A stretch of DNA of 64,000 bases, taken from Hypomesus transpacificus. Lineage: Eukaryota > Chordata > Actinopteri > Osmeriformes > Osmeridae. How positions within the stretch are numbered: position 1 is the first letter of the stretch; each line of letters begins with the position of its first letter. The translations under genes were made by a program, and so were the position numbers. Of this stretch, positions 16,139 through 52,140 are shown one piece after another. The notes beneath the pieces were generated by a model. The model had not been told where the DNA came from, searched no databases, and saw only the letters and a program-made list of their open reading frames with translations. The stretch is from positions 11,944,366 through 12,008,365 of the forward strand of contig NC_061060.1 of NCBI RefSeq assembly GCF_021917145.1. The letters run 5' to 3'.

Positions 16139-19102
16139 TTACAGGAAGTTCAATTTGTCAGAGTTGTAGACATCTGCAGAGGGGGAAGGGTCTGAGCTGG
16201 GAGAGAAGTCAGTGTGGTGGTTTAGTCTCTGAGGAAGCTTGAACTGAGTCTCAGAATCCGAAGAGAGGAAGTCGAAACCCAGAGAGAACGAAGGAGGATC
16301 CAGTCCTGTGGAGGTGGACACCTGAACAGAGAAAGATAAGAGAGGGAACATGAAACAAGGGGTCAAACTGTGTGGATGGCTTGCATAACATACATACAAG
16401 TGCATGGGGTGACTTTAGATACCTGAGTGTGGGGCTCATCCTTAAGGGTCGTCGTGTCAGTGGACTGGTTTTGACACGTGCCAAAGAGAGAGAGGAGACA
16501 GAAAAACATCCATCAGGTTTAGGTAAATAAACAAACAAACATGAATGTTCGTGGAGTGAATAAGGCTCGATGTGCAGAAGGGGAAAGGATATTATCAGTG
16601 ACCACCTACCGATGGATTGGGGGGAGGAGCAGTGGACTGGTAGGGATACGTTGGGCCAGAGGGTGCAGCGGGGGATATTGTGACGACCGGTTCACTAGCA
16701 TAACTCTGAAAATATGGGGGGCTGGGGTAACTTGGGCCTGAGGGTTGACTGGTCATGTGACAGGTTTCCTGTGAAATGTACGCCAACATGAACAGGAGAC
16801 AAAACCAACATGTTTAGCAATCTAGCTGAGGAACCAAATGACTGGTGCTTTGCCTTCTTCCCTTACCACTTCCCTTATTGACTAGAACACTTTACTTACG
16901 TCTTGGTGGACCACGACCTGCCCTGACCCGGAAGCAGAGGCGTTTCGTTTGGAAGTGTTCCTCTTACAGCAGCACTTCCTCACACAACAACAGATACCCA
17001 CCAGGATAACGACTGAAACTCCCACAAAAACATAAGTCTCCACAGGAACAAGAGCTGAAAGACAGGGAAAGAAAAAATCACTTAGTGTACACTATTGTAC
17101 CTTAAAATATCCCACCGTTAAAATGAGGTGGAGATGGTTTTGTGTGTGGATGTAAATGAAAGTAGAAAAACTGCTGGTATCTTTTACACAACATATGAAT
17201 CTGTTTTGCCACTTACGTTTTACATTCAGCCAAACTACTAATGCCAAGTTGTTGTCCTGGTCTCTGAGCTCAAACTTGCCAGAATCCTGGTTCTCTAAAT
17301 TTAACATTTGGAAACGAAAACCTCTATCCATGATCTCAAGCCTATTTCGGGTGGGATCGTCATACATCTCTATTCCCTTTCTGACCAGAAGTGTGGCCTC
17401 TGGGTCCCCTTCCTGAAAATAGTTGAGGTTGAACTGGGTGGAGTCCAGGAAGAAATTGATGTTGAATGTCTCACCACGTTCCAGAGTGTACCACTCAACC
17501 TGTTCTGAGAGAGAAGAGAAACAAGAGAAAATGTTGAGTAAGAGACGATAGGATAAGAAAAACAACACACGGTATACCGAATGATGACCAACATTTACCA
17601 GACCGTAACAGTGCATACGGTCACATCCATTTTAGGAAGTGAGAGTAATAGGGCAAAGCCTACAATCTGAGACCCTCACCTTCCACTTCCAAATTTCTTC
17701 TGGACAGAAACCGCCCATCGCTCTTTCTGAAGGTATAGTGGCCCTGATGCTTTTGGGTGACACGCGATACCACCCATGAGCGGCTTTCCATCACCCCCAT
17801 GCCCTCTATGCCAGCCTGACTGTCTGTTTGATTCCAGAGTACGACTGGCTCAGAGGATTCTAAAGGCAGAAAGTCCAAGGTAGAAGCTTGACTGACAACA
17901 GTCTGTAAGAACCTAGAACCGTAAGTCAAAACTGCTTTGGAAGAACAATCTGAAAAACAGAGGAAACAATAAGGGTGAATGCGAGACTTCTTAAAAACAT
18001 CCAAATTATTAATGAAGACATTTACAACAACTGACAGAAAATGTGGTCATAATGTTGGGAAAAACCTAACTGGCTTCCCATGAACGAATCAACTGAAATT
18101 TCAATGTAGCTGTAATAAATGCAGGTCCTCTCACCAGTAACTTCCAGTCTGAGGATATCAAATGTAATGCCATCGTCATACATAATAGAGAAAATCCCAT
18201 CGTCGTCTTCTGTTACATCAGGTATTCTCAAGGTCGAGAAGCTGGATTTGTAACGCGGGTCTTTTAGCTGATGGGAATAATTACAATTATTTAAATGTTT
18301 GCATTAAGGGCACATCTTCATACAATGTCCCAGAAGCATGACAACAATATGGAAAATATAGGGAAATAAATTGAATCATAATGTTGTTTTTCAGTAAACA
18401 GGTAGTCTTGCTTGCACCAGACTTTGCAAAATGAGATAGAGATCAATGGCTTATAGAACTAGTTGTTTTGTCAGACTAAAGAATTGTATTCCCATTGTTT
18501 CCTAGTAGGAAATTCCTACCAAAGAAAGCCTGAGAGAACAATTAATCAATTCCATTGAAATAGCTACTAGGTAAGTAAGTAGTGTAAGATCACTGTTCAT
18601 AAGTCATGCAAGTCACTAACTGGGATTTTCACAGGAAAAGGTTAAGGCACAAATGTTTTGCTGTCTCCAGGCACAACCAGGTCAGGCCTTCACACAGTTT
18701 GCCATCAAGAAGTTTATCCAACACTGCTCACCGCCAATTTGTCTAACACCAGTGTCTTGGGTGATCCCTGAGGGTATGATGGCTTGAAGAACAGCTTGGT
18801 AATTATGAAATAGGATTCGAATATTGATGGAATAACATATTCCGTGCCATAACAGACGCGGGCAGTCTCCAAGTAAGCACCTGTCATAGATAATAAATTG
18901 TAATGCAAAAGGGGCTCGACAATTTTATTTCCTGTAAAAAAAATCCAATATGGCTCGAGCTAGCCTATATCTGACAATCACTGTAGCATTGTCAGCTAAG
19001 TGCTACAGTAAGAGCTAACTCAGTAGCACTTAGCTAACTGTCATACTCACCAGCAGCACAGCAACATGAGAAACTAAGCAGAAAGCATACCCAGACAAAC
19101 AT
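16139..19102 (-). CDS. Ig-like type I membrane receptor, copy 1 (unnamed family)
   Basis: I do not recognise a named family. Exons (-): 19051-19102 (signal peptide MFVWVCFLLSFSCCCAA), 18732-18880, 18135-18267, 17680-17949, 17217-17504, 16900-17054, 16610-16768, 16423-16464, 16139-16321. Phases agree and give 476 residues. Three Ig-like modules follow: residues about 18-111 (ending DDGIFSIMYDDG), 112-201 (LWNQTD glycosylation site, HQGHYTFRKSDG) and 202-297 (DSGKFELRDQDNN). Each keeps the D/H-x-G-x-[YF] F-strand but lacks the usual Cys pair. A membrane helix (about 304-322) is followed by CCCVRKCCCKR, a likely palmitoylation and stop-transfer site. The tail of about 150 residues is rich in Pro, Ser and Tyr without a canonical ITIM and ends VYNSDKLNFL. 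It is probably a surface recognition receptor, by inference. Confidence 0.82.
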
Positions 19103-19129
19103 GATCTGCAAGGCTAGAGGCAATTAGAA

Positions 19130-19215
19130 AACAACAACAAGACTACTCTGGGACGATATGTATCCAACGTGGGGTCGAACTCTGGTAGCTCAGGCTGGAC
19201 TAGGTTAGCGTAAGC
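19130..19215 (-). promoter_or_regulatory. Conserved upstream block of Ig-like copy 1
   Basis: The 80 or so bases before the start of copy 1, read on the - strand, include GAGTTCGACCCCACGTTGGA, then ATCGTCCCAGAGTAGTC and TTGTTG. The same block precedes copy 3 (41392-41440) and, less perfectly, copy 4 (49126-49175). Shared position and conservation suggest the promoter/5' UTR was duplicated with the gene. Confidence 0.6.
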
Positions 19216-19699
19216 TGCTTCTCATGATACACCGAGCGTTTCTCGGGGGAGGGGGGGGGGGGGAGTCTCTGCAGGTTTGGATGCCTGCAGGAGGTCCCTA
19301 TGCTAAAAATGTAAGGTACATTTTTATAAGATATAAGATTAACTAATGCCAGGAATAATATTAGTATCATTGGATGAAATGTACTGTCATGTAAAAATTA
19401 CATATTTTAGCATAGGGAGCTTTTGGTAGAAAGGCTTTTTGCTGGGGTGACAGTGCCTGCCATCACACCGAGGTGAAATTAGTTTCATATTCGAGAGTCA
19501 ACAGACATTCATATTCGTAGCCTACCTCCGTTCGGGCTCCGCGTCATATTTAGGGACCGGGGTAAAAGAGTAGACAGTCCGAATGTTTCTTCAATATCTT
19601 TGTCAAAATCAACCATACAAACTTCAAACTTGTTGAACATTCTTCAACTACTAACTACTGAAAAATTGGTCAGCTAGTAGTAGAAGAATGTGAAACGGG

Positions 19700-21195
19700 T
19701 CTGAAGGGTCTCTGATAATTTTTGACAAAGATTTTGATGAAATACTTGAAAATATGTGTTATTATTGATTCATGGGCTATGGGTTCATCAATAATAAACT
19801 TTATCACCAAACCAAATTAGGACAACTTAGAAGTATGTGAAACAGGTCTGAAGTAGGGCTGGGCGGTATGACGGTATATACCGTGCGACGGTAGAAATGT
19901 GTCTACCGGGAGAGATTTGGCTATACCGTTTTAACCGCGGTATACTTTATACTATATTTTTGTATTACACGTGTCAATTAAATGTCTGGTTATTGTATTG
20001 TATATAAGCCATCATATAAATCGCATTATTGCGATATTTAGAATTGTAGTTTACTGTACTACACTACTGTGTAGTTTCACTCGTAGCAATGCTACTTCCT
20101 GCTAGTGTTACTTGTTAGCCTCCTCATTGTAAAATTTGAAGCCATATGATAAAGTTTCCATAGTCGATAAGATAGATAGGTACTTTATTAACCCCCGAAC
20201 GCAAATTATTGTGTCCAGGTAGACAGTTAGCTAGAAAGCTCACGCAGTCCAGAAAATCTTTAATCGATAAGTTGGATATTGTAGCTACAGTACAGTTTGA
20301 GTCTTTTGTTTTTAACTCAAGTGTTGTCTCGTGACAGTTGTTTTTGTTTGTAATAAATCAATAATAGAGTGTGATGATGTACGATATGGTTATTTTGTAC
20401 CATATCTTGATCGAATTTACAGAACAATTTCTATACCTTGATATATACCGTAACCGTGATATAAAATTACTCATACCGTGATAGAAGATTTTGGCCATAT
20501 CGCCCACCCCTAGTCTGAAGTTTCTATGTTCATTTTTCACAAAGGTATTGAGGAAATACTTGAAAATGTGTTTTTGTTGATTTATTGGCTATGGGTTAAT
20601 CAATAATAAACTTCATCACCAAACCAAAGTTTGGAAAACTTTGTGTGCTAGTATTATAAGAATGTGAAACATGTCTGAAGGTTCTATGTTCATTTTTGAC
20701 AAAGATATTGAGGAAATACTGAAATATTTGTGTATTTATTGACCTATTGTTTATGGATTAATCAATAATCAACTTTATCACCAAACCAAAGGTTGGACAA
20801 CTTGGTCAGCTAGTATTGGAATAATGTGAAACAGGTCTGAAGTTTCTGTGGTCATTTTTGGCAAAGATATTGAGGAAATACTTGAAAATGTGTTATTGAT
20901 TTATTGGCTATGGCCCTGGTTAATCAATAATCGTCTATATCACCAAACCAAAGCTTGGACAACTTGTTCAGTTAGTAGTAGAAGAATGTGAAACAAGTTT
21001 GACGTTTCTGTGGTAATTTTTGACAAAGATATTGATGAAATACTGGAAAATGTGTGATTATATTGATTTATTGGCTCTGGGTTAATCAATAATTAACATT
21101 ATCACCAAACCAAAGCTTGGACAAATTGGTCAGTCAGTAGTAGAAGAATGTTCAACAAGTTTGAAGTTTGTATGGTCGATTTTGACAAAGATATT
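19700..21195. repeat. ~161-bp tandem repeats inside the fold-back element
   Basis: Five to six head-to-tail units carry GACAAAGATATTGAGGAAAT and the downstream 'tcaccaaaccaaagcttgg'. The first motif recurs at about 19723, 20538, 20698, 20860, 21021 and 21183, giving steps of 160-162 bp once the hAT insertion at 19854-20512 is removed from the first interval (148 bp). The last unit merges into the right inverted arm. Confidence 0.85.
19854..20512. mobile_element. Non-autonomous hAT element (659 bp) inside the tandem array
   Basis: The ends are TAGGGCTGGGCGGTAT and, in reverse complement, TAGGGGTGGGCGATAT. The copy is flanked by a perfect 8-bp target duplication GTCTGAAG (19846-19853 and 20513-20520), which is diagnostic for hAT. 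There is no transposase frame. Subterminal 'ataccg' and 'cggtat' motifs are repeated in both orientations. Confidence 0.92.
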
Positions 21196-21276
21196 GAAGA
21201 AACATTCGGATTGTCTACTCTTTTACCCCGGTCCCTAAATATGACGCGGAACCGGAACGGATGTACGAATATGAAT

Positions 21277-22639
21277 GGCCGGGTTTCCCAGATCCGTTAA
21301 GAAGCGCTTAACGCTAAGATCTTCTTAAAAACGTTCTAAGAGCGTTCTAGAGCGCCCTTAGATAGTTCTTAAGACGCTCTTAGCGTTAAGAGCTTCTTAA
21401 CTCTATGGAGTCTGGAGCTATTTTGTCCGTTTTTGAGTACCTTTGATTTGGCCTTGATATACTACATAAAGAAATGTTTATCATACCAATGTTTGGTATC
21501 TTTTTTTCAGCACAATCTCACCTACATGACCAGTTAAATTAAGATTTTCACTTTGGCATACTTTTCAACATACTGGACCCAAACAGACACAAAAACACAA
21601 ACTCCGTGTGGAAAAATTATGTTTTTTTGACTATAATACACACACATATGCTCAATCAAGCATTTCAAAAGTTTGAAATTGAAGCACAAGTTGTATATGT
21701 GAACATAAAAAGGTAAAGTTGATTTATAATTAAGCTATTTACAAAGAGAGCAGTTCTATCCATATGCACTGTTATTCATCCATATTTGTCCCATAATAAA
21801 AAATTATTCACAATATTCAAAAAATAAAAAATAAATATATTTTTTTTTTCTCCACTAGATGTCACCCTTGGCTCATTTATAACCTTCTCTTTGACCACCG
21901 CAGAACCTCCGTCTATGCCACAATGGCTCTTTTTTCTCTTTATGTCAATAAAACGTAAAAAAAAAAAAAGATGTATAAGAATCAAAAATCAATATGTTCT
22001 GAGGTATTTGTATTACAGCGAAGTAGAATAGAATAATATAATAAGATAAACGAAAGCAATGAATGTTTTTCTTACCTCTCGTTGTAAACAAAAAATCTTG
22101 GTCGTCCATCTTTTTTTTTTTTTTTGCTCTGAGGTAGAAATAACAAGTCGCCGGCATGTTGGACAGCGTGTCCGACTCATTGCCCCCCAAATAAGTCCAA
22201 ATGTTTAGCTAAACTACTCAAAATACTTCGAAAACTAGTCATAATAAACCAAATTAGTTTTTTCTTAGACGTCTCTTTGTCCTCTCGTTTTCTCGTGCAT
22301 CCTATAGCTATGAGTCAGTAGAATCACCCGTTTTTCTCCGTTTCATTTTTGGACAAAAAACTAGAAAAATATTACAATAAATGCAACGCGCGCATAAAAG
22401 AGCGCATTTTTTGGACGCACTTTTTTCATGGAATTGAAATGATCGTATCTTAAGTTTTACTTGGTGTATTTACACAAACCAAGCACTCAAATGTAGCTTC
22501 AGGTCTGCACTTCCGCATGAAATCGACGGCTGCCCTCTGAGTGTCTTTGTTTATATGCTGCGTAGTCCGAAAGCTGACCTGCGCTCTGATCGCGCCGGCG
22601 CGATCACCGACTCGAAGGACGAATCTGGGAAACCCGGCC
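21277..22639. mobile_element. 1363-bp inverted-repeat DNA element, class uncertain
   Basis: The ends are GGCCGGGTTTCCCAGAT and its exact reverse complement. It interrupts the right arm of the fold-back element. Comparison with the intact left arm shows that AAT is present on both sides (21274-21276 and 22640-22642) but once in the empty site, so the target duplication is 3 bp. Three bases would suit PIF/Harbinger-like elements, but AAT is not their usual TWA, so the class stays open. Inverted GCTCTTAGCGTTAAG-type motifs lie inside the left end. A 63-codon minus-strand frame at the right end resembles nothing I know. Confidence 0.8.
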
Positions 22640-22679
22640 AATGTCTGTTGAATCTCGAATACGAAACTGATTTCACCTC

Positions 22680-23492
22680 AGTTGCCACCACTTGGATGTG
22701 CTAGTGGTCCCACCATGAAAAACACTCGAATCGTATGAAGCAGGAGATTCATTTTAATTTGATTTGGTACAAAGCCACAGTGATAGTGCAAAACAGGGTA
22801 AATGGTGACCAGGCTTACAACCATTCTGTCCCATAATGCTATGTTGTGTCCCCTCTGTCTATGTGACTTGACATTGGATAAAAGCACCAAGATAAACATG
22901 TCAATCTACCAAGTCCATAGGACACCTACAATCAACTTTCAAAATTGCATTCATTAATATGACTGTCACTGTCAAGAGTTCCCTTCTAGGTTGAATAGTT
23001 TACTAAGACAACACATGTAGTTCCCTTTTCATAACTGCCATCTGCAACCAGACTTGAAAAATGGACAGTAAGATTAATCAAAAATAGTAGTAACCGTTTA
23101 CTGAGTTAAAAACAGTAGGAAGTCTTCTTCCTACGACATTCACAATGATGGTAAAATGAAAATGGTCATAGAGGATGTACTAAAAAAGTGTATTTTGGAA
23201 TTTGTTTCGTTCAACAAGTGAGAGAAGAGAAATTCTTAATTTGATCGTAGTTTGCGCGGGTTCGTATCCAACACTCAATGCCATGTTTTAAGGGCTAGTG
23301 CATTAATGAATTCTTTACTACTGTGCACAATAGAAAAACGTTTTAAAACTTTAAAAATTCAAAATAATCACTGACGTGTGTGTATGTGCGTTTTGAGGAG
23401 TGGGGGTGGGGGTTAAAATACAGTAAGAGATGGACAAATCACAATGACTTAACAACAATTTGGCAACTGTTTTTGGCTGGCTATGAGAGCGA
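22680..23492. other. Intergenic / tcirg1 3' UTR
   Basis: Nothing coding is seen. The stretch from the end of the fold-back element to the tcirg1 stop is AT-rich and unique in appearance. Its right part must be the 3' UTR of tcirg1 (minus strand), but no strong AATAAA was found. Confidence 0.5.
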
Positions 23493-37488: not shown

Positions 37489-40378
37489 CTAGAAGAAGTT
37501 GAGCTTGTCTGAGGTGTAAACGCTGCAGGTTCCTGAAGTATCGGTGTCCAGCGGAAGAGTGGAAAAGAAGAATCTCTCCTTAGCCCCCTCCTTCTTGATG
37601 TGGAACTGAGCGCACTCTCCGGACGGGCGGAGGCAGTCGGACGCCCCCGGGACAGAGATGGAGGTCCTCCTCTGCCTGCTGTTTGGGTCCTGAGGGGAGA
37701 AGAAGGTGGGAATGACAGGATGGATGGCACACTGAGGATGGTTTTCTCTTGGTGTGATAACGTTAGGAGAATCGATATGCGGGCAAACAGACACGCGCAC
37801 ACACACGCTCGCAGTACCTCAGCACTCAGCATGTTGCTGGTAGAGGTCTCATCTTTCTTTCTGTCTGTTCTAAGAAGCCCCGGGGACAGCCTGGGCTCTC
37901 TGTCCAAAACTGGGGTGTAGCCCTACACAAACAGATACATCCACTGTAAAACAAAGATGAGTACAAGACCGACTGCATTGACATCCAGTGATCCTACCGA
38001 ACGAACAGGACTGGAGCTCCATTTTGTAGGGGTCATGGGAAGTTCAGGCTGGTTATTTACGCCAGAGTGCTGGGGACTGGGAGGGCTGAAGTCCTGAAGA
38101 CAAAACCAAGACAAACCTTATCATAACCGCTTCCAAATGTAAACTCCAAAAGACCTACTCTCCACTGTGCAGAAGGGTAAAGGTGATGAGAGTGGAATGC
38201 CCTCATCCGTAACCTTTAATGCAACACTGCAAGCCTCCTCTGCTCACCTGCACGTTGATACGAGGTGGGTTGGTAGCCTGGGGGTGGTGAGCCCTCAGAC
38301 CGCTAAGGATCTGGGCAACGCCACAGTTTGGAAAACGTTTCATGAAAAGGATGAAACCAGCCAGGGTCACAAACAGTCCGGAAGGCACCGTTATGGACTT
38401 CAGGACCGCTCTCCACCTGGCCATCTTCTCTGGAGACAGTTGTGGAACACAAGAGCAATAGTTGAGACCCCTGAAGAGGTTTGGCTTTTTCCAAGTCTTA
38501 TGAGAAAGAAAAGTCAAAGTCGGTCCTAGTTTTAGAACCAGAGATACACACTCCCCGACACTCACCAATCACATGGAGGGCGGTAGAAGAAACCAGATTC
38601 CCCTCCCTATCTCGGATCTCATACAACCCATCGTGCCTTGCACTCAGCCTGGAGATGACCACCTCGTCTACCCCTCCGTTCCTGTTGACAGAGATCAGGC
38701 TCCGGTAGCGGGCGTCTTGCTCCACTATCTGCCCGTCACGCATCAGCTGCATGGGGCCGCGGGGAGGGTAAAGGTCAAAGGTGGAGACGGGAGAGTCGCC
38801 ATGGTGCGGGGTGGGGGTGAAAATGAGGTGGGCATGGGGGAGGGGCAGAAAGAGGGGGATGTTTAGAGACTCCTTGGGGAAGTGGGTAACATTAAAGGTA
38901 TGTCCTGCAACCCAACCGAGAGGAGGTGTTGAGGGGTGAGAGAAAATGAAAAGATGGAATGGAGGCGGAAATGAAGAAGAAAGAAATAGGGAGAACAAGG
39001 ACAGGAGGGGAGGTTCAGGATGAAAGAAAAAGAATAGATAGGCACACGTGTTACAAATAGGACCAAAAGCTTCAGTTTGGCATTTTGACTGGCCCGTTTG
39101 GCATCTTCCATGGCCCTCCATCTCTTTCTCATCCCTCCATTCCGGTGCTCACCATGGACGGCGAGGGTGCTCCGAGAGAGGACCTTCCCGTTGTCGTCGC
39201 GGACGGTGTAGTTTCCCTGGTCAGCCTGTGTTACCATCTCCGCCACCCAGACCCTCCCGTCCTGCTGGACTCGACCCCGGCTTCCTACAGCACTCTCAGG
39301 GTCTGACTGGTTCCACAGGACCACCGGCGGGGACTCTGGAGGGGAGCCGCGAGGTAAGAACTCCAGGAGGGAGCCCTCTTTTGGGATGCTGGACTTGAAG
39401 GTCTCCCCATATCCCCGTCTGACGCTTTTTATACAGTCTAAGAAAGGTGGATGAAGGGAGGGGGAGGAGCAGTTGAGCAAAAGAGACAGAGAAGTAGAGA
39501 GAGTGTGTGAAACCGAAAAGCTTTGAAGAAGGATCGAATATCTAAGCATGTGTAACAGGGCCGACGTTGGCTACTCGCTGGGCTCAAACACACCACCTCT
39601 GACTTGCCAAGCGCGACCACTACCAGCTACGCTAACGAAAAGCTAGCTCTTCGTCGACGCGGGTGGCCCCTTATATACTTGAGGACTGAGTTTCACGGAT
39701 TCACACCCGTTACACATGCAGCACAATACATTAGATCAAATTCCACTTTTATCCCTGAAAAGAGGCAATGTACCCAGATGTAAAAGGTTATACCTGAGAC
39801 TGTGAGACGTACAGTCTCATAAGTGAACCCAGAAGGAAGTTTGATCGAGTAGAGCCCCTGGTCACTGTGTGTGACTTCTTTCAGTAGTAACGTCCGGTCT
39901 CTGGTCCATTCGAACCGTGGGTCCTTCACCTATAAAAGTGTAGCAGAGATGCGGACTGCAGACTTGTCACCACCACACACACACATCACACGTACATTAC
40001 ACTCACATCGTTTTTATCCAGTAGCACCCTTCTTGGTCCTGGGGGGTAATTGGGAGTAAAAGTCACTATTCTTGAAGCAGAGTAGACAGGCAAACGGAAA
40101 TGCCGGCCAGCACACACTCTCTGGAAGTCTTCATTCTCAGCTGGGGAAAAGTAAGAGAGATGAAGACATCATTGGGATCAAAAAGCTTTATAGTGGAAGA
40201 ACACATTTACGTCACACTTTAAGGGGCAAGAGAAAAAGAGAGGGCATTCTTATGAAATGATGTGGAAGGAACTTGGTGGTATGGTAACAAACGTTGCAAA
40301 AGCGTTGTAGCAAAAGTGGAACTCACTCTTGGAAAGAGGAATATTGAAGAGAGTACTCAACAGGATAAACAGCAGCAT
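37489..40378 (-). CDS. Ig-like type I membrane receptor, copy 2 (diverged paralogue)
   Basis: This has the same nine-exon plan as copy 1 but a well-diverged sequence. Exons (-): 40327-40378 (signal MLLFILLSTLFNIPLS), 40007-40140, 39794-39929, 39153-39437, 38566-38904, 38248-38429, 37998-38093, 37818-37922, 37489-37689. Phases agree and give 509 residues. Module 1 ends HSDQGLYSIKLPSG, module 2 has VVLWNQSDPES and ADQGNYTVRDDNG, and module 3 has ARHDGLYEIRDREGN and an inserted Pro/His-rich loop of about 30 residues. The membrane helix is VPSGLFVTLAGFILFM (about 331-346) and lacks the Cys cluster of copy 1. The tail is unlike copy 1 except for its end, VYTSDKLNFF. The function is unknown. Shared exon lengths (52-nt first exon) and the C-terminal motif show common descent. 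Confidence 0.8.
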
Positions 40379-41474
40379 GTTCTGTAGGAGCAATGTCAAC
40401 AACGGACATAGTTGTTATATCATATATATGACTTATTCCACAAAAACTAAGGTAGTAGGCCTATGCATACTGTAAGGACACTAACAGTAGTCCATGTATT
40501 ATTATTATGCATCCCCAGTCTCCACTACCACCAAGCCAGCAAACACGGCACATGGTCAATTAATCAACTACACAAGGGGGTGCTGCTAGACTATTTCTCG
40601 GCATTACCATAATTGCAATGGTATGTCAAAGTACCTCATCCAAATAGGCAAATATACTGTACCGAAGCTAACACAATCGAAGACTAAATTAATCGAATAT
40701 CACCAAAACGGTACTTGACAATTCGTTAAACATAATTGTAATAAGATAGCATACTTACCAGCGCGTGACTGCAAAAATATGTTCATTAGTGGGACATTAT
40801 CCAATACCATAGGTCAATACTGTTTATTGGACATTTGTCATCAAATTATCTTTGGGTATAGTGTAATCCTAGCCAGTGGCCAACAGTGCGCATGGGCATG
40901 CAGGCTGTGATGTATTTCTCTGCGCAGGCACTGCCCATTTCCACCAACCCACAGAACCTGAAAACGAAGAGGCACGCCCCATTCCGGACAGTTGCCTACA
41001 CTGAAGCCAGCGAAAACAGCGTCAACAGCTTTGAAAACTTTTAAAACAAAAGTTTTTTTTTTTTTTACTGCAGTCCACAGAATAAATTAGTTTCAATTGA
41101 AAAAATAATGCCACCAGATCATCACGCACGACATATTTTCCTTGTCTATAAGTTCCAATTTTGGAAGAAATTCTACTTATATAAAAAACATAACAAATTC
41201 CAGCATAGGTCATGGTGACAACATTTATGTTTGTGGAAGTAAAACATGTTTGAAAAATACAAGGTCATGGTGATGTAATTCGACCTTTATTTTGAAATCT
41301 GAAATGGCGCTGAATTCACTGTACCAGCCTGAGAAACTCGGTGTATGGGTGTATATGAGAAGCAGCTAACTTTAGATCAGCCTGAACTACCAGAGTTCGA
41401 CCCCACGTTGGATAAATATCGTCCCAGAGTAGTCTTGTTGTTTGGTAATGTAATTGTTTCTAGCCTCGTAGATC
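40379..41474. promoter_or_regulatory. Head-to-head promoter interval of Ig-like copies 2 and 3
   Basis: This 1.1-kb gap separates the divergent starts of copy 2 (-) and copy 3 (+). The right part (41392-41440) contains the conserved upstream block GAGTTCGACCCCACGTTGGA shared with copies 1 and 4. The remainder has no recognised repeat. Confidence 0.5.
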
Positions 41475-44400
41475 ATGTTTGTCTCGGTATGCTTTCTGCT
41501 TAGTGTCTCATGTTGCTGTGCTGGTGAGTATGAAAGTTAGCACTAGTACAGTACTAATGGGTCCCTTTATCGTCCACCTACTGTACTAGTAGCTCTCGAC
41601 GCTCGTTAGAAATGTTACCAAAATGTCGATATAATACAAATTTAAAAACGTGATGTCAGTCACAGCATTGCACTTTAATATATAGATACACACCTATAAT
41701 ATAAAATTCCGGTTTTAAAATCCAATAAGGATATGCTTACAAATGTAGAGCTAATTTTCCTGAATTTAGCAGTTACCGCAGAGCCATAGAAAAAGAATCT
41801 TTTTCAATGGTTCTGAGTTACCGTAGCCAGGGGGCCCCATTACAGTATCGTCCACCCAACCACTTTATGGAGAAATGTCAAGTTTGACGCTGAGGAAGAC
41901 AGCTGCTACACGTATGGTTTTAGAGCGTATTTACATACTCAAATCTCAAAGTAAGAAGCTGTCACTTGTTGTGCAGCAATATAAGATGTGTACATATCGA
42001 TGAGTTACTTTATGTCGTTGCTGCAGCCTGCAGTATATCTTCTTTAAGAAATTAACGGAAGAAACGGTTGTGAACGATACTGGGGTCTGGAACGTTGGTG
42101 AGTTTGGATAGACGATAATGGGGCCGCTTACTCTAGCTAGCTCCCCATATTGAAATCTTTCAACAGGAAATGAAATTATTGAGCCCCTTTTGCATTACAA
42201 TTTCTTATCTATATCAGGTGCTGTCTTGGAGGCTGTCTTGGAGACTGTCTGTTATGGTGCGGAATATGTTATCCCATCAAATTACGAATACCATTTATTA
42301 GTTTCCAAACTGTTCTTCAAGCCAACATACCCCGAGGGATCACCCAAGATACTGGTGTTAGACAAATTGGAGGTGAGCAGTGTTTGAAATTAACTTATTG
42401 ATGGCAAACTGTGTGAAGGCCTGACCTGAGGCCTGTTCCATAAAGCGAATTTACCAAATAAACCAGATTTATGTTAGTTAGTTGGACTCATTTGTAGTTA
42501 ATTCCGTTCCATGAAGCTAGCTTAACGTAGGTCGAACTCAGTTACTACGGTAACTTATGCTTCGAAACTAGCCTGGTCCGGGGCACAACCTTTGTTTTCA
42601 CAACCTTTTCTTGTGAAAATCCCAGTTACTCAGTAAGTGACTTGCATGACTTATGAGGTCAAGAGGTCAATCTTTGGGCCCCTAGAAGTGCACATGTAGA
42701 TTTAGGAATGTGCAGTGTGCAGTCCTTGGAGGAGAGGAGAAGCAGCTGATGGTCTCCAAACTTAGTTATAATCGAATGACCTGGGTGCCGTTTCCCCTGG
42801 ACATACAGTCAGAGAATGTGTACTGTTTAAGGGCATGTTTTGGTGGTTATTATATCTGTACTGTACGGCCATCTATGATATCACTCATGCCGACCACTCT
42901 GCCTGACGTGGTGAGGTGGTCCAAGCAGCTCGACTAATAAACAAAGTCAACTCTTTTTTTATTGTGCTGCTGTCCTTGACTTCTCTTCTGACTGGAAAAT
43001 CATCTTACATTTAATCTGAGATAGCAGCCAGTTCTATGAACCACCTTGAGCTGCAGTTCTTGTATGAAATGTGCATTATAAATAAAGTCTTACTTACTTA
43101 CTTACTGATCTCTAAGTCTGGTGTAAGCAAAACTACCTGTTTACTGGAAAAGCAACATTATGATTCCATTTATTTCCCTATATTTTTCTTATCGTTGTTT
43201 TGCTTCTGGGACATTGTATGAAGATGTGCTCTCAATGCAACATTTTAAATAATTGTAATTATTCCCACTAGCTAAAAGACCCACGTTACAAATCCACCTT
43301 CTCGACCTTGAGAATACCATATGTAACAGAAGAGGACAATGGGATTTTCTCTGTTATGTATGACGATGGCATTACATTTGATCTCCTCAGACTGGAAGTT
43401 ACTGGTGAGAGGAGCTGCATTTATTACATCCACATTGAAACTTCAGCTGTTTCGTTCATGGGAAGCCAATGAGGTTCTTCCCAACATTATGTTAAGGTTC
43501 CAACCCTTATAGCGTCCTCTGTTTTTCAGCTTGTTTTTCCAAAGATGAAGTTGGTTACAGAACTACCTGGCATTTTGACACAGTTGACAATCCAGCTACC
43601 TTAGACTTCCTGCCTTTAGACTCTTCCTCTGAGCCAGTGGTACTCTGGAATCAGACAGACAGCCAGGCTGGCATGGAGGGCATGGGGATGATGAAAAGCC
43701 ACTCATGGGTGGTATTACGTGCCACCCAAAAGCATTAGGGCCACTATACCTTCAGAAACGGCAATGGGCAGTTTCTGTCCAGAAGAAAGCTTGAAGTGAA
43801 AGTTGAGGGTCTCAGATTGTAGGCTTTGCCCTATTGCTCTCACTTCCTAAAAGGTATGTGACCGTATCCACTGTTACGGTCTGGTAAATGTTGGTCATCA
43901 TTCGGTATACCGTGTGTTGTTTTTCTTATCCTATCGTCTCTTACTCAACATTTTCTCTTGTTTCTATTTTCTCTCAGAACAGGTTGAGTGGTACACTCTG
44001 GAACGTGGTGAGACACTCAACATCTATATCTTCCTGGACTCCACCCAGTTCAACCTCAACTATTTTCAGGAAGGGGACCCAGAGGCCACACTTCTGATTA
44101 GAAAGGGAAGAGAAATAGGCTTGAGATGTGGGAGAGAGGTTTTCGTTTCCAGATGTTAAATTTAGAGAACCAGGACTCTGGCAAGTTTGAGCTCAGAGAC
44201 CAGGACAACAACTTGGCATTAGTAGTTTGGCTGAACGTAAAACGTAAGTGGCAAAACAGATTCACATGTTGTGTAAAAGATACCAGCAGTTTTTGTCCTG
44301 TCATTTACATCCACACACAAAACCATGTTTTTTAGATGAGGTCATTCTGACGGTGGGATGTTTTGATATTTTAAGGTACAATAGTGTACACTAAGTGATT

Positions 44401-45336
44401 TTTTCTTTCCTTGTCTTTCAGCTCTTATTTCTGTGGAGACTTACATTTCTGTGGGAGTTTCAGTCGTTTTCCTGGTGGGTATCTGTTGTTGTGTGAGGAA
44501 GTGCTGCTGTAAGAGGAACGCCTCCAAACAAAACGCCTCTGCTTCCGGGTCAGGGCAGGTCGTGGTCCACCAAGATGACGTAAGTCAAGTGTTCTAGTCA
44601 ATAAGGGAAGTGGTAAGGGAAGAAGGCAAAGCACCAGTCATTTGGTTCCAGAGCTAGTTTGCTAAACATGTTGGTTTTGTCTCCTGTTCATGTTGGCGTA
44701 CATTTCACAGGAAACCTGTCACATGACCAGTCAACCCTCAGGCCCAAGTTACCCCAGCCCCCCATATTTTCAGAGTTATGCTAGTGAACCGGTCGTCACA
44801 ATATCCCCCGCTGCACCCTCTGGCCCAACGTATCCCTACCAGTCCACTGCTGCTCCCCCCAATCCATCGGTAGGTGGTCACTGATAATATCCTTTCCCCT
44901 TCTGCACATCGAGCCTTATTCACTCCACGAACATTCATGTTTGTTTATTTACCTAAACCTGATGGATGTTTTCCTCTCTCCTCTCTCTCTTTGGCACGTG
45001 TCAAAACCAGTCCAATGACACGACGACCCTTAAGGATGACCCCCACACTCAGGTATCTAAAGTCACCCCATGCACTTGTATGTATGTTATGCAAGCCATC
45101 CACACAGTTTGACCCCTTGTTTCATGTTCCCTCTCTTATCTTTCTCTGTTCAGGTGTCCACCTCCACAGGACTGGATCCTCCTTCGTTCTCTCTGGGTTT
45201 CGACTTCCTCTCTTCGGATTCTGAGACTCAGTTCAAGCTTCCTCAGAGACTAAACCACCGCACTGACTTCTTTCCCAGCTCAGACCCTTCCCCCTCTGCA
45301 GATGTCTACAACTCTGACAAATTGAATTTCCTGTAA
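41475..45336 (+). pseudogene. Ig-like receptor copy 3, disabled
   Basis: Exon equivalents: 41475-41523, 42218-42372, 43272-43404, 43530-43802, 43978-44243, 44422-44579, 44711-44869, 45011-45052, 45154-45336. The copy is closest to copy 1. Three lesions are visible. CAG has become TAG at 43736-43738 inside the conserved KHQGHYTF of module 2. The donor after 43802 reads TTGAGG where copies 1 and 4 have GTGAGG. Exon 5 has a net loss of 22 bp compared with copy 1 (266 against 288), which shifts the frame before the module 3 core. Everything downstream, including membrane exon, tail exons and the final VYNSDKLNFL, is still clean in its own frame, so inactivation looks recent. Intron 2 carries extra retroposon DNA. 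Confidence 0.88.
42600..43108 (+). mobile_element. Retroposon 3' end with (CTTA)n tail in copy 3 intron
   Basis: Relative to the matching intron of copy 4 (49523-49985), this stretch is extra. It ends 'gtatgaaatgtgcattata' AATAAAG (CTTA)n, a tail form common in fish LINE-derived elements. A 75-codon frame at 42710-42937 lies inside but matches nothing I recognise. The left boundary is uncertain. Confidence 0.55.
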
Positions 45337-46236
45337 AAGAAAATACTGGATTTGGTGGGACCATACCACATTTAGTTATGTTCTTGTCTAGTCACACGTC
45401 TGTTATGTGGCCTAATTCTATGGATAAGTATTCATTATTTTATCATTCATTTATTGTTTAAGCATATGTGGGCACCTTCAAGGATTCTACTGTGTTGAGT
45501 TGAGGATAAGTGCAAGCCAAATCACCATCTCCAGTTTTGATACATTTATATTTTCCACTTTTATATTTTTATTCTCTGAGAATTTGTGCCTTTTTATAAT
45601 TTTTTTGTGCTTGGGTGGATAATCCAATAGTTTGTACTGTGACTATTCACACTAGTTAGCAGTCACTTCTGTGAACCTAACTGTACTTTCTGTGATGCCC
45701 TGTGTACTGAACATCCTTTCACCACTACATGTTTGGGAAATCTACCTGCTTGCCTTATAGCCCTGGTGCTGCCGGTCCTGGTTGTCTTGCCAGGCCTTTC
45801 TGACCTCATATACTATTGGACAACTCAATGTCCCATATGGAAACTTATCAAACTTTGTGTGTTGTTTTTTACTGTGTGTGTTGATATTATTATAACGAGG
45901 ACTTAGCTTCTCTGTCTTCCTCAGAAAAACAAGAAAACTAAGCGCTAATACCTATCACTGATGTTTTTCAGTAAAAACAAAGTTGAAAATACCGACTTTC
46001 GACCACTTGTCTGACTGTGTGTGTTTGAGTTGGCTCGGCCCTCCCTCACGCAGTAGAATTGGTTGACACCACGTGTATGATTGACAGGAACAGAATGTGA
46101 GGCTGATCAGATAATCGAATGTGTGTGTGCACCTTTAGGCTTATATAATTATTTTGTTGTTGTTTTTTGAATTAGTCAATTATTTTAAATACAATTAAAA
46201 TCATTCATTATTACATAATTTAATTTCTATAGGCTA
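45337..46236. other. 3' UTR of copy 3 and flank
   Basis: The sequence is strongly similar to the DNA after the stops of copies 1 and 4 (shared 'ctcatatactattggacaac' near the end), so it is a duplicated 3' UTR. After about 45900 the similarity fades into AT-rich unique DNA. Confidence 0.6.
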
Positions 46237-47321
46237 CAGTGGCGATTCTAGACAAATTTTACTGGGGGGGCCAAGGGGGGGCCAGTGTTTAATCAGAGAG
46301 GCACATAAAAAAACGGAAATGTCACACTAGTGTCACGATTAAAAAGCAGGTGTGATCCTTGGGCTACAGTCACACAGCCGAGAGACAGATGCAGAAAATA
46401 GGTTTTAATAATATAAGCAAGGATAAAATATCCAACACTAAAAGCAGAATGTCTCTGTCCTTTAAAACCAGAAAATAACTCAAAGCCTACAGCTACTTTG
46501 GCATATGTCCACTCCGGTCTAGGAACGCTGTCGGCTCCAAGCAGTACCGTTCCTTTCTTCCCTTGGACCACCGCTTGCAGTGCGTAGGGCGAACCTGCCT
46601 GGACAACGAGAATAATTGGCTACTCTTGATTCGGACGGTGACAAGCAATTGTGTAGGAGAGATTCAGGTAATTACCTTTACGTTCAGCGGACGAGCCGTG
46701 GTTGTGCCTCCGGAGTCTGAAATGGGAGCAGCGGAATTTTGATCGTCGCTTCTCTGTACTCTTGCGTGTGTCCCCGTAGAATCCTCCTTATGTTCAGTCC
46801 CCATTCCTTTTTGTAGGAGTTCCTCTCATTGGCCAACCAATCAGTTGAGTCGTTTAGGGGTGATGGGCTGCTTCTCTGTCAGCTGGGGAGTTCCCTCCCC
46901 CCGTCCTTGTTGTCGAACAGCACACACACACAATACCATGCACACAATCACAGCAAACAATATAAAAATACCACAGCAACCAATATGAAAACACCACAGC
47001 AAACGATGGTCAAAACCCAACAAAAATAGCAGACAACAAGGCTGGCCAACTGGCATCTGTAAAAGAAACAGATGATATTTAAACATCAAATACTTTAATT
47101 TAGCTTTACATTAAAGACATACGGCTCTGGCTCTCCCTTTTCCAGCTCCTCAGCTCAATACCTTGAAAAAAAGGCTGCAATGTCCTTTCCTCGTTTCATG
47201 ATGACTACCAGAAGTAGAAATACGTGTAAACGTTTTTTTTTTCTTCAGGCAGCTCAGGGGGGGCAGGGACATATTTACAGGGACACTGGCCACTGTAGGC
47301 CCCCGTGTAAAACTGCCCCTG
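46237..47321. mobile_element. hAT-type element, 1085 bp
   Basis: The left end is CAGTGGCGATTCTAGAC and the right end, in reverse complement, is CAGGGGCAGTTTTACAC. The flanking octamers ATAGGCTA (46229-46236) and ATGGGCTA (47322-47329) differ at one base, as expected of an aged hAT target duplication. Inside there is no transposase frame. Both ends carry runs of G/C next to the inverted repeat. Confidence 0.75.
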
Positions 47322-47533
47322 ATGGGCTATATATTTTTTTCAATACAGTCGGCTCATCAGATATGCGAGCCAGCTCCCGACGTTCACCAACAAGAAGTTC
47401 ACTACTAGTCGGCTCATTCGCTGACAACCTAGTATGTAGCCTACGAAGATGTCCGTGGCAGAGACTCAAGAGATCTTGAGTGAAGTGTCCCAAGCACCAG
47501 CGAGGAGGTTGGTAGTCAGGAAGACCAGCCAAC

Positions 47534-47870
47534 CAGGGGCAATTCTAGGAGCAGATCATTAGGGGGGCTCAGCCCCCAATGAGAATGTGACATCTGCTAT
47601 GAAATTAATACCTACATCTTCTCTTCTTAAAGGTGCATGACAACACTGGATATTAAACCTGTTTAAAGCCCTTTGAACCTATAATTATTTGTCATCAGTC
47701 ACTAACAGACACGTTTGCAAACTCTTATGTTAGAACACTAAAACGTATTTAAGATTATAATCATTCATAATAATTCAATTGTTGTAATTTTTTGTTATAA
47801 TTTTTATGGGTGCTGAGATTAAATTTAGGTGTGCTTAAGCGCCCCTAAAAAGAGTCTAAAATCGCCTTTG
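47534..47870. mobile_element. 337-bp hAT MITE with perfect target duplication
   Basis: The left end is CAGGGGCAATTCTAG and the right end, in reverse complement, is CAAAGGCGATTTTAG. Both sides are flanked by the identical octamer CAGCCAAC (47526-47533 and 47871-47878). The ends resemble those of the element at 46237, so both were probably mobilised by the same transposase family. Confidence 0.88.
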
Positions 47871-48244
47871 CAGCCAACCCTTTTACATCCCTGACCGTAA
47901 CAGGATTTTTTTTCGCAATGGTTGGATGCAAAAACAACTCCTTTAGAATGCGCTGCAAGCTCTGCGCACCCAAGTAGGCTACCACGAACTAATGGCTTTC
48001 AAAAACTCACCGTCTAATTTGAATAAAAACTATTGATAACATGCCTCTGAAGTTTGACTTTTTGCACCATTACAATACTTATAGGCAACTAGTCATCATA
48101 TCTTCCGCTCCATGAAACACATGTTAATGCTAGTAAGTAGCCTACATGCATCATGGTTCTTTAAGGTATTTGCATTGTACTAAAATGTATTCATTTTCAA
48201 TGGGCATAAACAGGTGCACCCCAAAAATTTTCAACACAGTCAAA

Positions 48245-48415
48245 TCGTCTGGGGAGTCAGGTGGTTGAGCGGTTAGGGAATCGGGCTAGTAATCTGAAAT
48301 TCGCCAGTTCAATTCCCGGCCGTGTCCAATGACGTGGCTTGGGAAAGGCACTTCACCCTACTTGCCTCGGAGGGAATGTCCCTGTACTTACTGTAAATGA
48401 CAATGTAAATGTATG
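48245..48415 (+). mobile_element. tRNA-derived SINE, second copy
   Basis: This is the same family as the copy at 12975. Box A-like TGGTTGAGCGGTTAG is near 48262, a degraded box B GTTCAATTCCC near 48310, then the shared body 'cacttcaccctacttgcctc' and a shortened tail. It lies upstream of Ig-like copy 4. It is more diverged than the copy in mrpl18. Confidence 0.8.
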
Positions 48416-48824
48416 GACCCGGTGACTTCACCTTCAACATCTGCATAATTGCATCATCCAATTCTTCAATTGAGTTTTTCTTTCATGACTCATTAAATCA
48501 TCATCCAGCACTTGGATTATAATCCCTCATTTTACAAAACAATAAAGAACGATTACCTTTAGAAAAAAATGGATTCATACCAATTGCTATAAAAATACAA
48601 TTTTCCTCATTTATGGCTTGACTATCAATGTTGTCAAGAAATTACACTAATATTAATAGGTAACATAACTAATTTCAGCATAGGTCATGGTGATAACATT
48701 GATGTTGGGGGTATTAAAACATGTTTGAAAGAGGGGTGAGAGAGACATGGTGATGTAGTTCAACCTTTATTTTGAAATCTAAAAATGTCGCTGACTGACT
48801 TTACTGCATTAGCCTGCGCAAGGG

Positions 48825-49068
48825 TTTCCCGAAAGCGTCGTAAGCCTAAATGGATCGTAGATTCCATCGTATGACGAATCTTAGTTTTACGGGCCGTACC
48901 CAAACACATCTTGGCTAAAGTGTCTCTCGAAAATTCGTAACTCTATAAAGTGCATAGTTTAGCTTACTCCTTATGAGCATGTTTGGGAAACGCACGTAAG
49001 AAACATCGATGGTTTCGTTTTTTGCTCGTTCGTTGCCACGATCCATCGTTATCGGGAAACGCAGTCCA
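48825..49068. mobile_element. Probable MITE upstream of Ig-like copy 4
   Basis: About 240 bp is bounded by GGGTTTCCCGAAAGC on the left and an imperfect reverse complement (TTATCGGGAAACGC) on the right, with internal GGATCGTAG/CGATCCATCG complementarity, so the stretch can fold into a long hairpin. No clear target duplication was found and the exact ends are approximate. Confidence 0.5.
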
Positions 49069-49201
49069 GAGCAACTCTAATGGATGAGAAGCAGCTAACC
49101 TAGTTCGGCATGAGCTATCCGAGTTCTAGCTAATACACCCCATGTTGGATGAATATCGTCCAGACTAGTCTTGTTGTTTGCTATTGTAATTGTTTCGGAT
49201 C

Positions 49202-52140
49202 ATGTTTGTCTGGGTATGCTTTCTGCTTAGTGTCTCATTTTGCAGTGCTGGTGAGTATGACAGTTGGATACTAAACTGACAACGCTGCAGTTACAGATCC
49301 CCATATTGGAATTTTTCTACAAGAAATTAAATTATTGAGCCCCTTTTGCATTACAATGTATTATCTGTGTCAGGTGCTTTCTTGGATACTGCCCGCGTCT
49401 GTTATGGCACGGAATATGTTTTTCCATCAAAATACAAATCATATTTCACAATTACCAAGCTGTTCTTCAAGCCATCATACCCTCAGGGATCACCCAAGAC
49501 ACTGGTGTTAGACAAATTGGAGGTGAGCAGTGTTGGATTAACTTGTTGATGGCAAACTGTGAAGGCCTGACCTGGCTGTGTCTGGAGACAGCAAAACATT
49601 TGTGCCTTAACCTTTTCCTGTGAAAATCTCAGTTAGTGACTTGCATGACTTATCAACAGTGATCTTACACTACTCACTGCAGATCCATGGCTTACCTAGA
49701 AGCTATTTCAATGGAACTGATTATTTGTCCTCTCAGGCTTTCTCTAGTAGGAAACATTGGGAAGACAATTCTTTTGTCTGAGAAAACAACCAGTTCCATA
49801 AGCCATTGATCTCTATCTCATTTTGCAAAGTCTGGTGTAAGCAAGACTACCTGTTTACTGAAAAACCAACATTAGGATTCCATGTATTTCCCTATATTTT
49901 CCATATTGTTGTCATGCTTATGGGACATTGAATGAAGATGTGCTCTCAATGCAACATTTTAAATAATTGTAATTATTCCCTTCAGCTAAAAGCCCCACGT
50001 TACAAATCCAGCTTCTCGACCTTGAGAATACCTGATGTAACAGAAGAGGACGATGGGATTTTCTCTATTATGTATGTCAATGGCGTTACATTTGATATCC
50101 TCGAACTGGAAGTTACTGGTGAGAGGACCTGCATTTATTACATCTACATTAAAACTTCAGCTGTTTCGTTCATGAGAAGCCAATGAGGTTTTTCCCAACA
50201 ATATGACCCCATCTGCTGTCAGTTGCTGTAAATGTCTTCATTAATAATTTGGATGTTTTTAAGAAGTCTCGCATTCACCCTATTGCTTCTGTTTTTCAGC
50301 TTGTTCTTCCAAAGTAGAATTGACTTACGGCTCTAGGTTCTTGCAGACTGTTGTCAATCAAGCTTCTACCTTAGACTTCCTGCCTTTAGACTCTTCCTCT
50401 GAGCAAATGGTACTCTGGAATCAAACAAACACCAAGGCTCGCATAGAGGGCATGGGGGTGTTTATAGGCTACTCATGGTTGGTAAAGTTTGTCACCCAAA
50501 AGCATCAGGGCCACTATACCTTCAGAAACAGCGATGGCCGGATTCTGTCCAGAACAAAGCTGGAAGTGAAAGGTGAGGGTCTCAGATTGTAGGCTTTGCC
50601 CTATTGCTCTCACTTCCTAAAACGTATGTGACCGATTGCACTGTTACGGTCTGGTAAATGTTGGTCATCATTCGGTATACCGTGTGTTGTTTTTCTTATC
50701 CTATCGTCTCTTACTCAACATTTTCTCATGCTGAGTTTCTCTTCTCTCTCAGAACATGTTGAGTGGCACACTGTGGACAGTGAGGAGAATATCTTCATCA
50801 ATTTCGCCCTGGACTCTAATGAGTGCGACCTCAACTTTTTTCCGGAAGGGGAAACAGAGGCCATACTTTTGATTAAAAATGGAATAGAGATGTATGGCAA
50901 ACCCATCAATGACAAGGTTCGGATACTGGGTCGAAGATCACATTTTGCTTTTAAAATTGCTGATTTAGAGAACAAGGATTCTGGCAAGTTTGAGCTCAGA
51001 GACCAGGACAACAACTTGGCTTTAGTAGTTTGGCTGAAGGTAAAATGTAAGTGGCAAAACAGATTAATCTGTGTGTAAAAGAGACCAGTAGTTTTTGTCC
51101 TGCCATTTACATCAACACACAAAACCATGTTTTTGAGATTAGGTCATTCTGACGGTGGGATGTTTTGATATTTTAAAAAGCTACAATATTGTACCCTAAG
51201 TGATTTTTTTTCTTTCCCTGTCTTTCAGCTGGTATTTATATGTCTACACATATTTTTGTGGGAGTTTTTGTAATTTTCCTGGTGGGTCTCTATTGTTGTG
51301 TGAGGAAGTGCTGCCCTAAGAGGAAAGCCTCCAAACAAAACGCCTCTCCTTCCGGGTCAGGGCAGGTCGTGGTCCACCAAGACGTACGTTAAGTGTTCTA
51401 GTCAATGAGGGAAGTGGTAAGGGAAGAAAGCAAAGCACCAGTCATTTGGTTCCTCAGCTAGTTTGCTAAACATGTTGGTTTTGTCTCCTGTTCATGTTGG
51501 CGTACATTTCACAGGAAACCTGTCACATGACCAGTCAACCCTCAGGCCCAAGTTACCCCAGCCCCCCATATTTTCAGAGTTATGCTAGTGAACCGGTCGT
51601 CACAATATCCCCCGCTGAACCCTCTGGCCCAACGTATCCCTACCAGTCCACTGCTCCTCCTCCCAATCCATCGGTAGGTGGTCACTGATAATATCCTTTC
51701 CCCTTCTGCACATCGAGCCTTATTCACTCCGCTAACATTCATGTTTGTTTATTTACCTAAACCTGATGGATGTTTTCCTCTCTCCTCTCTCTCTTTGGCA
51801 CGTGTCAAAACCAGTCCAATGACACGACGACCCTTAAGGATGACCCCCACACTCAGGTATCTAAAGTCACCCCATGCACTTGTATGTATGTTATGCAAGC
51901 CATCCACACAGTTTGACCCCTTGTTTCATGTTCCCTCTCTTATCTTTCTCTGTTCAGGTGTCCACCTCCACAGGACTGGATCCTCCTTCGTTCTCTCTGG
52001 GTTTCGGCTTCCTCTCTTCGGATTCCGAGACTCAGTTTAAGCTTCCTCAGAGACTAAACCACCGCACTGACTTCTTTCCCAGCTCAGACCCTTCCTCCTC
52101 TGCAGATGTGTACATCTCTGACAAACTGAACTTCCGTTAA
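49202..52140 (+). CDS. Ig-like type I membrane receptor, copy 4, intact
   Basis: Exons: 49202-49250 (signal MFVWVCFLLSVSFCSA), 49374-49522, 49986-50118, 50300-50572, 50753-51046, 51229-51383, 51515-51673, 51815-51856, 51958-52140. Phases agree and give 478 residues. The domain plan equals copy 1: three cysteine-poor Ig-like modules (EDDGIFSIMYVNG; LWNQTN and HQGHYTFRNSDG; DSGKFELRDQDNN), a membrane helix in exon 6 (THIFVGVFVIFLVGLYCCV), a basic Cys cluster, a Pro-rich tail and the end VYISDKLNFR. Module 3 (exon 5) differs strongly from copy 1 in its first two thirds (EHVEWHTVDSEENIF against EQVEWYTLERGETFN), whereas its last 19 residues or so and the whole tail are almost identical. It is expected to be expressed; ligand and signalling are unknown. 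Confidence 0.83.

Follow-up and report, generated by a model that had tools for sequence, protein, structure and literature searches.

A 64-kb stretch of the genome of the fish Hypomesus transpacificus (contig NC_061060.1, numbered C1 here, positions 11944366-12008365; the whole stretch is called the window below) holds four homologous gene copies, A and B on the minus strand and C and D on the plus strand, that belong to a family of putative receptors with three immunoglobulin (Ig)-like modules. The family is defined by its anatomy and by a C-terminal motif confined in this genome to its members A to E. The sequences support a receptor-like, unevenly diverging family, and near-identical tails combined with one diverged extracellular unit hint at a role in recognition. 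We give about an even chance to the reading that the family works at the cell surface in recognition or adhesion, its extracellular modules being variable and its docking tail constant.

Gene models of the four copies

The exon models of A to D were deduced from the sequence alone; the span 16139-52140 of the window runs from the stop codon of A to the stop codon of D. Genes A, B and D each consist of nine exons and eight GT..AG introns with a frame open from ATG to stop, and their intron phases are identical (1,0,1,1,1,0,0,0). In all three, module 1 is encoded by exons 2 and 3, modules 2 and 3 by one exon each, the membrane segment by exon 6 and the tail by exons 7 to 9. Gene A (16139..19102, minus strand, 476 aa) is intact, with exons at 19051-19102 (signal, 52 nt), 18732-18880 and 18135-18267 (module 1), 17680-17949 (module 2), 17217-17504 (module 3), 16900-17054 (membrane) and 16610-16768, 16423-16464 and 16139-16321 (tail); its protein ends in ADVYNSDKLNFL. 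Gene B (37489..40378, minus strand, 509 aa), also intact and the most divergent of the window members, has exons at 40327-40378 (signal, 52 nt), 40007-40140 and 39794-39929 (module 1), 39153-39437 (module 2), 38566-38904 (module 3), 38248-38429 (membrane) and 37998-38093, 37818-37922 and 37489-37689 (tail), and a protein ending in CSVYTSDKLNFF. Gene D (49202..52140, plus strand, 478 aa) is intact with exons at 49202-49250 (signal, 49 nt), 49374-49522 and 49986-50118 (module 1), 50300-50572 (module 2), 50753-51046 (module 3), 51229-51383 (membrane) and 51515-51673, 51815-51856 and 51958-52140 (tail), and ends in ADVYISDKLNFR.

Gene C (41475..45336, plus strand) is a pseudogene with homologues of all nine exons (41475-41523, the signal exon, 42218-42372, 43272-43404, 43530-43802, 43978-44243, 44422-44579, 44711-44869, 45011-45052 and 45154-45336) and three disabling lesions: a TAG at 43736 interrupts the reading frame, the donor after exon 4 (after 43802) reads TT instead of GT, and exon 5 has lost 22 nt, which shifts the frame. 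The intron after its signal exon is 694 nt long, compared with 170 nt in A. The original prediction of three full genes and one pseudogene on a common nine-exon plan, with a signal exon of 49 or 52 nt, a split module 1, single-exon modules 2 and 3, a membrane exon and tail exons, is therefore borne out. The resemblance among the copies is not due to chance: intron phases (in A, B and D) and the C-terminal motif are common to them, and the family profile has matches in the Protein Data Bank (PDB).

Relatives elsewhere in the genome

The genome (437 Mb, 376 contigs) was searched for relatives. The search with A located an intact gene, E, on contig C2 (L023:2833-6668), open over 476 residues, with the intron phases of A, B and D and an additional phase-2 intron within module 3. 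This module is thus split in E (L023 4009-4162 and 5219-5379), and apparently also in G (L044, see below), and is unsplit in A, B, D and F; the extra intron is a gain or a loss within the family. A DNA pattern for VYxSDKLNF had five matches in the genome, namely A, B, C, D and E, and a reversed-pattern control had 0. All five end in this motif and the phases are common to the four genes in which they were checked (A, B, D, E). The search with B gave weak matches on contigs C4 and C2, which together with a neighbouring C4 match from the A search led to two further genes, F (L043, contig C4) and G (L044, contig C2), modelled by eye. Both have three modules in the order found in A to E and a membrane span, and both lack the VYxSDKLNF end. 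The F/G profile aligns to the A/B/D/E profile over 249 columns covering all three modules (E 5.6e-23, score 156.1), compared with 18.6 for the best of 50 column-shuffled controls and 15.9 for a reversed control. By these comparisons, A to E are one subfamily within a wider family of putative type I membrane receptors, and F and G are its distant relatives.

Further weak genome matches were obtained with A (contigs C8, C76, C10, C24 and C1 at 7.64 Mb) and with B (C15 and C23); since these seven lie beyond the modelled set, the family comprises at least seven loci (A to G). The module-3 search of the genome returned B itself and one weak match on contig C158 (E 1), and a module-2 pattern matched 40 stretches in viral contigs, none of them confirmed. 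The tail of G (minus-strand frame from about 2618 of L044) carries a long proline-rich repeat in which PPPVIKSS occurs many times.

Uneven divergence and mosaic structure

A, C and D arose by recent duplication. The duplicated block around A (15572..19225, minus strand) matches 49084-52712 around D at 84% identity and, in pieces, 41348-45868 around C; the A-D match extends from 123 nt before the ATG of A to 567 nt beyond its stop codon. As had been anticipated, this local duplication has diverged unevenly. Between A and D, introns 4, 6, 7 and 8 differ by 3.4, 3.8, 2.8 and 0%, intron 2 by 6.9%, and introns 1, 3 and 5 by 19.5, 8.8 and 12.4% (7.3% for the eight introns pooled). For the exons the differences are 6% (exons 2 and 3), 13.7% (exon 4), 21.2% (exon 5, module 3), 16.8% (exon 6) and 1.3, 4.8 and 6.0% (tail exons 7 to 9). 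When A, C and D are compared together, differences amount to 0-6% in the tail exons and in introns 4, 6, 7 and 8. The module-3 exon of D (50753..51046, plus strand), 21% from that of A, is flanked by introns that differ by 3.4% (before) and 12.4% (after), and the module-3 exon of A (17217..17504, minus strand) is a mosaic element, 5% from C and 21% from D. Between A and D, module 3 is more divergent than introns 4-6 taken together when all sites are counted (Fisher p 8e-9), and also at synonymous sites when set against introns 4 and 6 (Fisher p 1e-4). Of the 42 alignment columns at which module 3 differs, all but one precede the last strands, so that the divergence ends inside exon 5 and not at its end; since introns 1, 3 and 5 diverge as well, the escape is not neatly exon-bounded.

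At informative sites among the three copies, A agrees with D in exon 2 (21/30) and with C in exons 5 and 6 (69/88). A mosaic test over the whole alignment gave chi2 189 at 420 sites (0/5000 permutations as high), including intron 2, which an insertion in C makes hard to align; the count was therefore run on exons only and gave chi2 79.3 at 208 informative sites, again with 0/5000 permutations as high, under permutations that assume independent sites. This heterogeneity among sites makes the copies mosaics. Module 3 and the membrane exon of D, and exon 2 of C, apparently come from a different, older lineage. The pattern fits concerted evolution of much of the gene together with an ectodomain segment that may have escaped gene conversion or been imported, and the A/C/D trio offers a natural case for how one protein module escapes gene conversion.

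The dN/dS ratios between A and D are 2.29 for module 1, 1.02 for module 2, 1.10 for module 3 and 1.86 for the membrane exon, 1.23 for the ectodomain (Fisher p 0.22 against 1) and 0.47 for the tail (not significantly below 1), with p 0.085 for ectodomain versus tail; in none of the regions computed is the ratio significantly above 1. Diversifying selection was rejected as a demonstrated process, since the ratios are not significant and synonymous sites diverge as well; the strong divergence of module 3 at synonymous sites points to an old or imported origin for much of that module, and not to recent positive selection.

The main rival to a recognition or adhesion receptor is relaxed constraint: as redundant duplicates of a B/E-type gene, A, C and D would be drifting to loss, and the divergence of D would be drift. 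We consider this improbable, though better placed than the other rivals. It would account for the state of C, already a pseudogene, for an ectodomain dN/dS near 1 with 1.86 in the membrane exon, and for the divergence of introns 1, 3 and 5, but A and D remain fully open despite about 114 estimated ectodomain differences, the tail ratio is 0.47 (though not significantly below 1), and drift alone fails to give an exon six times as divergent as the intron that precedes it, synonymous sites included.

Immunoglobulin-like modules

Single sequences gave little in library searches. In Pfam, ten window frames had one weak V-set match and one frame with three weak non-Ig matches, full-length A had four weak non-Ig families, and full-length B had Ig_3, I-set and V-set, all below the cut-offs, and one unnamed domain; NCBIfam had no match for B. 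In the PDB, the B ectodomain had eight matches (best E 0.047) and F had two, twitchin (E 0.32) and a flagellar protein (E 1.2), with no Ig chain below E 0.3. None of the single proteins A, B, D, F and G rises above the Pfam Ig cut-offs, and E exceeds the V-set cut-off (31.7 bits versus 26) over a 27-residue stretch of module 1. Because single-exon Pfam and PDB searches were nearly empty, family profiles were used. With the profile of A, B, D and E, 47 of 51 PDB matches (E up to 10, best E 5.1e-6) were Ig-superfamily chains, the other four being two JAK1, one SRK8 and one RACK1 chain; with the module-2 profile the count was 20 of 24 (best E 5.4e-4), the others being two CobS and two ArtA chains. 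With the six-row family profile the best E was 2.3e-7, and among the best 60 of 139 matches all 60 were Ig-superfamily chains, the closest of those listed being VEGFR (VEGFR2), ROBO (ROBO2), contactin (contactin-2), JAML and neurofascin. Matches were sorted as Ig or non-Ig by molecule name, and since the PDB is rich in Ig chains and the profile searches had no shuffled control, the E-values carry the argument and not the Ig shares. Profile similarity to the immunoglobulin superfamily is thus found both in E, over the V-set cut-off, and in the family profiles; judged in this way, the modules are Ig-like, weakly so for most single proteins and clearly for the six-row profile. This upholds the original prediction of Ig-like membrane receptors that match no nameable family, and by the libraries searched (Pfam, and NCBIfam for B) neither A to E nor F and G would belong to a named one.

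The canonical B-F cysteine pair, common in Ig domains and not obligatory, is absent from all three modules; the D-x-G-x-Y-like corner of the F strand is retained, with another residue in place of the cysteine. Two ectodomain cysteines are invariant in A, B, D and E. The first lies in the early part of module 1 and the second directly behind its last strand, and neither is at the F strand as the alignment is read here. Across the six rows one ectodomain cysteine is invariant, F and G keeping just the second of the pair. In A to E the two module-1 cysteines may pair with each other instead, as an A'-to-G staple. Modules 2 and 3 are alike (hhalign E 6.3e-6, probability 85%) and module 1 is weakly like the others (E about 0.002, probability 13-16%), which is what is expected of repeated domains. 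The first domains of CD2/SLAM-type receptors are V-like without the canonical disulfide; the present family differs in that all three modules lack the pair and module 1 is split by an intron in A to E.

The profile neighbours, which are growth-factor-receptor and adhesion or axon-guidance Ig proteins (VEGFR, ROBO, contactin, JAML, neurofascin), also suit a structural role in epithelial or neural adhesion, in which extra copies would serve particular tissues and no conflict with pathogens would be involved, as do the scarcity of immune signalling motifs and the conserved C-terminal motif. These neighbours are, however, too distant to carry function, and in our judgement mosaic copies and the divergence of module 3 would be unusual for structural adhesion proteins. 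We rate this explanation below relaxed constraint and unlikely.

An ordinary V-set search did not reveal the family among the candidates scored: of its 848 genome candidates, none of the 150 scored and listed lies in the window. Those 150 include clusters of ordinary V-set exons on C1 (3.28-3.34 Mb), C4 (0.29-0.37 Mb), C10 (6.6-6.9 Mb), C17 (7.67-7.73 Mb) and C25 (5.83-5.91 Mb), some of which may be classical fish immune receptor clusters.

Membrane span and cytoplasmic tail

In the membrane spans of A, B, D and E, as placed here, there is no D, E, K or R; the first residue of the D span is histidine. No ITIM match is present in the tails of A, D and E, and the B tail shows a single ITIM-like sequence, SGYTPV, where two of its exons join; no ITAM half is present in the tails of A, B and D, and that of E has one ITAM-half-like YTGI. 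Cysteine clusters adjoin the membrane in A, D and E, and PPxY motifs number two in E and none in A, B and D. The ectodomain modules share 21-40% identity when A or D, B and E are compared, and the constancy of VYxSDKLNF over such divergence suggests a fixed cytoplasmic partner for the tail. The tail was also considered as a PDZ ligand, which was judged unlikely because the last residue, the one after SDKLNF, varies (L, F, R or S).

Novel immune-type receptors (NITR) have one or two extracellular Ig domains and mostly an ITIM or a positively charged membrane residue (PMC2442602). DICP, LITR and NILT are named as families in PMC7867084. The present genes resemble NITR as fish type I membrane proteins with an Ig-type ectodomain, in clusters with species-specific expansions (PMC2442602), but their three modules fall outside the one or two Ig domains given there, and A, D and E have neither ITIM nor charged membrane residue, B having the ITIM-like SGYTPV with an uncharged span. 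Immune receptors of the NITR/DICP/LITR kind, signalling by ITIM/ITAM or a charged membrane residue, would explain the Ig-like modules, the cluster, the pseudogene and the mosaic copies, as well as SGYTPV in B and YTGI in E. They are unlikely here, given the tails of A, D and E without ITIM and of A, B and D without ITAM half, four spans without charge, absent canonical cysteines, and a window empty of the scored V-set candidates. The original proposal of recognition receptors, if taken in the immune sense, is not supported by the sequences: the A and D tails lack ITIM and ITAM half, the spans are uncharged and the ectodomain dN/dS is not significantly above 1. Gamete-recognition receptors, with ectodomain divergence driven by egg-sperm coevolution, would fit the uneven ectodomain divergence and are very improbable.

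Proposed mechanism and comparison with known systems

By sequence, A to E have a signal exon, three Ig-like modules, one membrane span and a cytoplasmic tail ending in VYxSDKLNFx. In the recognition or adhesion reading, the modules would fold as V/I-set-like sandwiches without the canonical B-F disulfide in their core; the outer ones would attach to a partner carried by another cell or by a microbe, and the tail would relay binding with its tyrosine-bearing C-terminal motif as the one fixed docking site. Gene conversion would keep the copies similar, and module 3 would come to differ through selection or an imported segment, as in rapidly evolving recognition or adhesion families, CEACAM among them. 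That the most divergent module adjoins the membrane and not the tip, where ligands usually bind, speaks against this reading.

For ruminant CEACAM32, PMC7042247 describes conversion in an Ig-superfamily gene family that affects the leader exon and introns and spares the Ig-coding exons of one member, a pattern similar to the one seen here. The two cases differ in that introns 1 (19.5%) and 5 (12.4%) are not homogenised between A and D, the canonical cysteine pair is absent, and the tail is another one. CEACAM1/6 chains occur among the distant PDB matches of the six-row profile, below VEGFR2, ROBO2, contactin-2 and others.

These genes probably stand in public annotations as uncharacterised proteins. 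B may resemble si:dkeyp-77h1.4, a zebrafish-named, uncharacterised gene. In Table 1 of PMC7918649, a gill study, si:dkeyp-77h1.4 ranks second among the genes whose expression is raised in Antarctic notothenioids, with a fold change of 494 and no known function, and Table 1 of PMC5418189 lists it as one of nine genes under positive selection on two branches of killifishes. Literature searches for the SDKLNF tail and for Ig-like tandem genes by prpf19 in teleosts found nothing, one for DICP with ITIM found nothing relevant, and among the matches listed none mentioned the family beyond these two tables (PMC7918649, PMC5418189), subscription journals lying mostly outside the search. If B is this gene, one known from a gill-adaptation table (PMC7918649) and as killifish-selected (PMC5418189) would gain an architecture and testable parts. 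The most specific form of the proposal, an undescribed fish receptor family with all three Ig modules free of the canonical disulfide (possibly with an A'-to-G staple in A to E), a private C-terminal docking motif, and clustered copies that swap and diversify the membrane-proximal module under concerted evolution, for recognition at barrier tissues such as gill, is tentative and, taken whole, rather unlikely to hold.

Neighbourhood of the cluster

Of ten neighbourhood frames searched, seven matched Pfam families. Between A and B lie the gene of the V-ATPase 116-kDa subunit (a subunit), in two frames, and a U-box gene, which we presume to be PRPF19; after D lies a BRI3BP-family gene, presumably TMEM109. 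The interleaving with housekeeping genes that had been noted for the cluster is therefore real. A RING gene lies at the right end of the window, and a dual-specificity phosphatase and a transposase lie to the left of A. In human, the corresponding synteny block would lie near CD5/CD6/MS4A, as originally noted.

The transposase frame (1828-2904, minus strand) is open over 358 aa and of the Tc1/mariner type (HTH_Tnp_Tc3_2, DDE_3); a frame on its opposite strand (2549-2959) has a near-identical counterpart adjoining E (L023:8600-9007). Between A and the V-ATPase gene, positions 19467-22682 contain nested inverted repeats, with outer arms of 43 nt (91% complementary) and inner arms of 134 nt (95% complementary), which look like stacked non-autonomous transposons.
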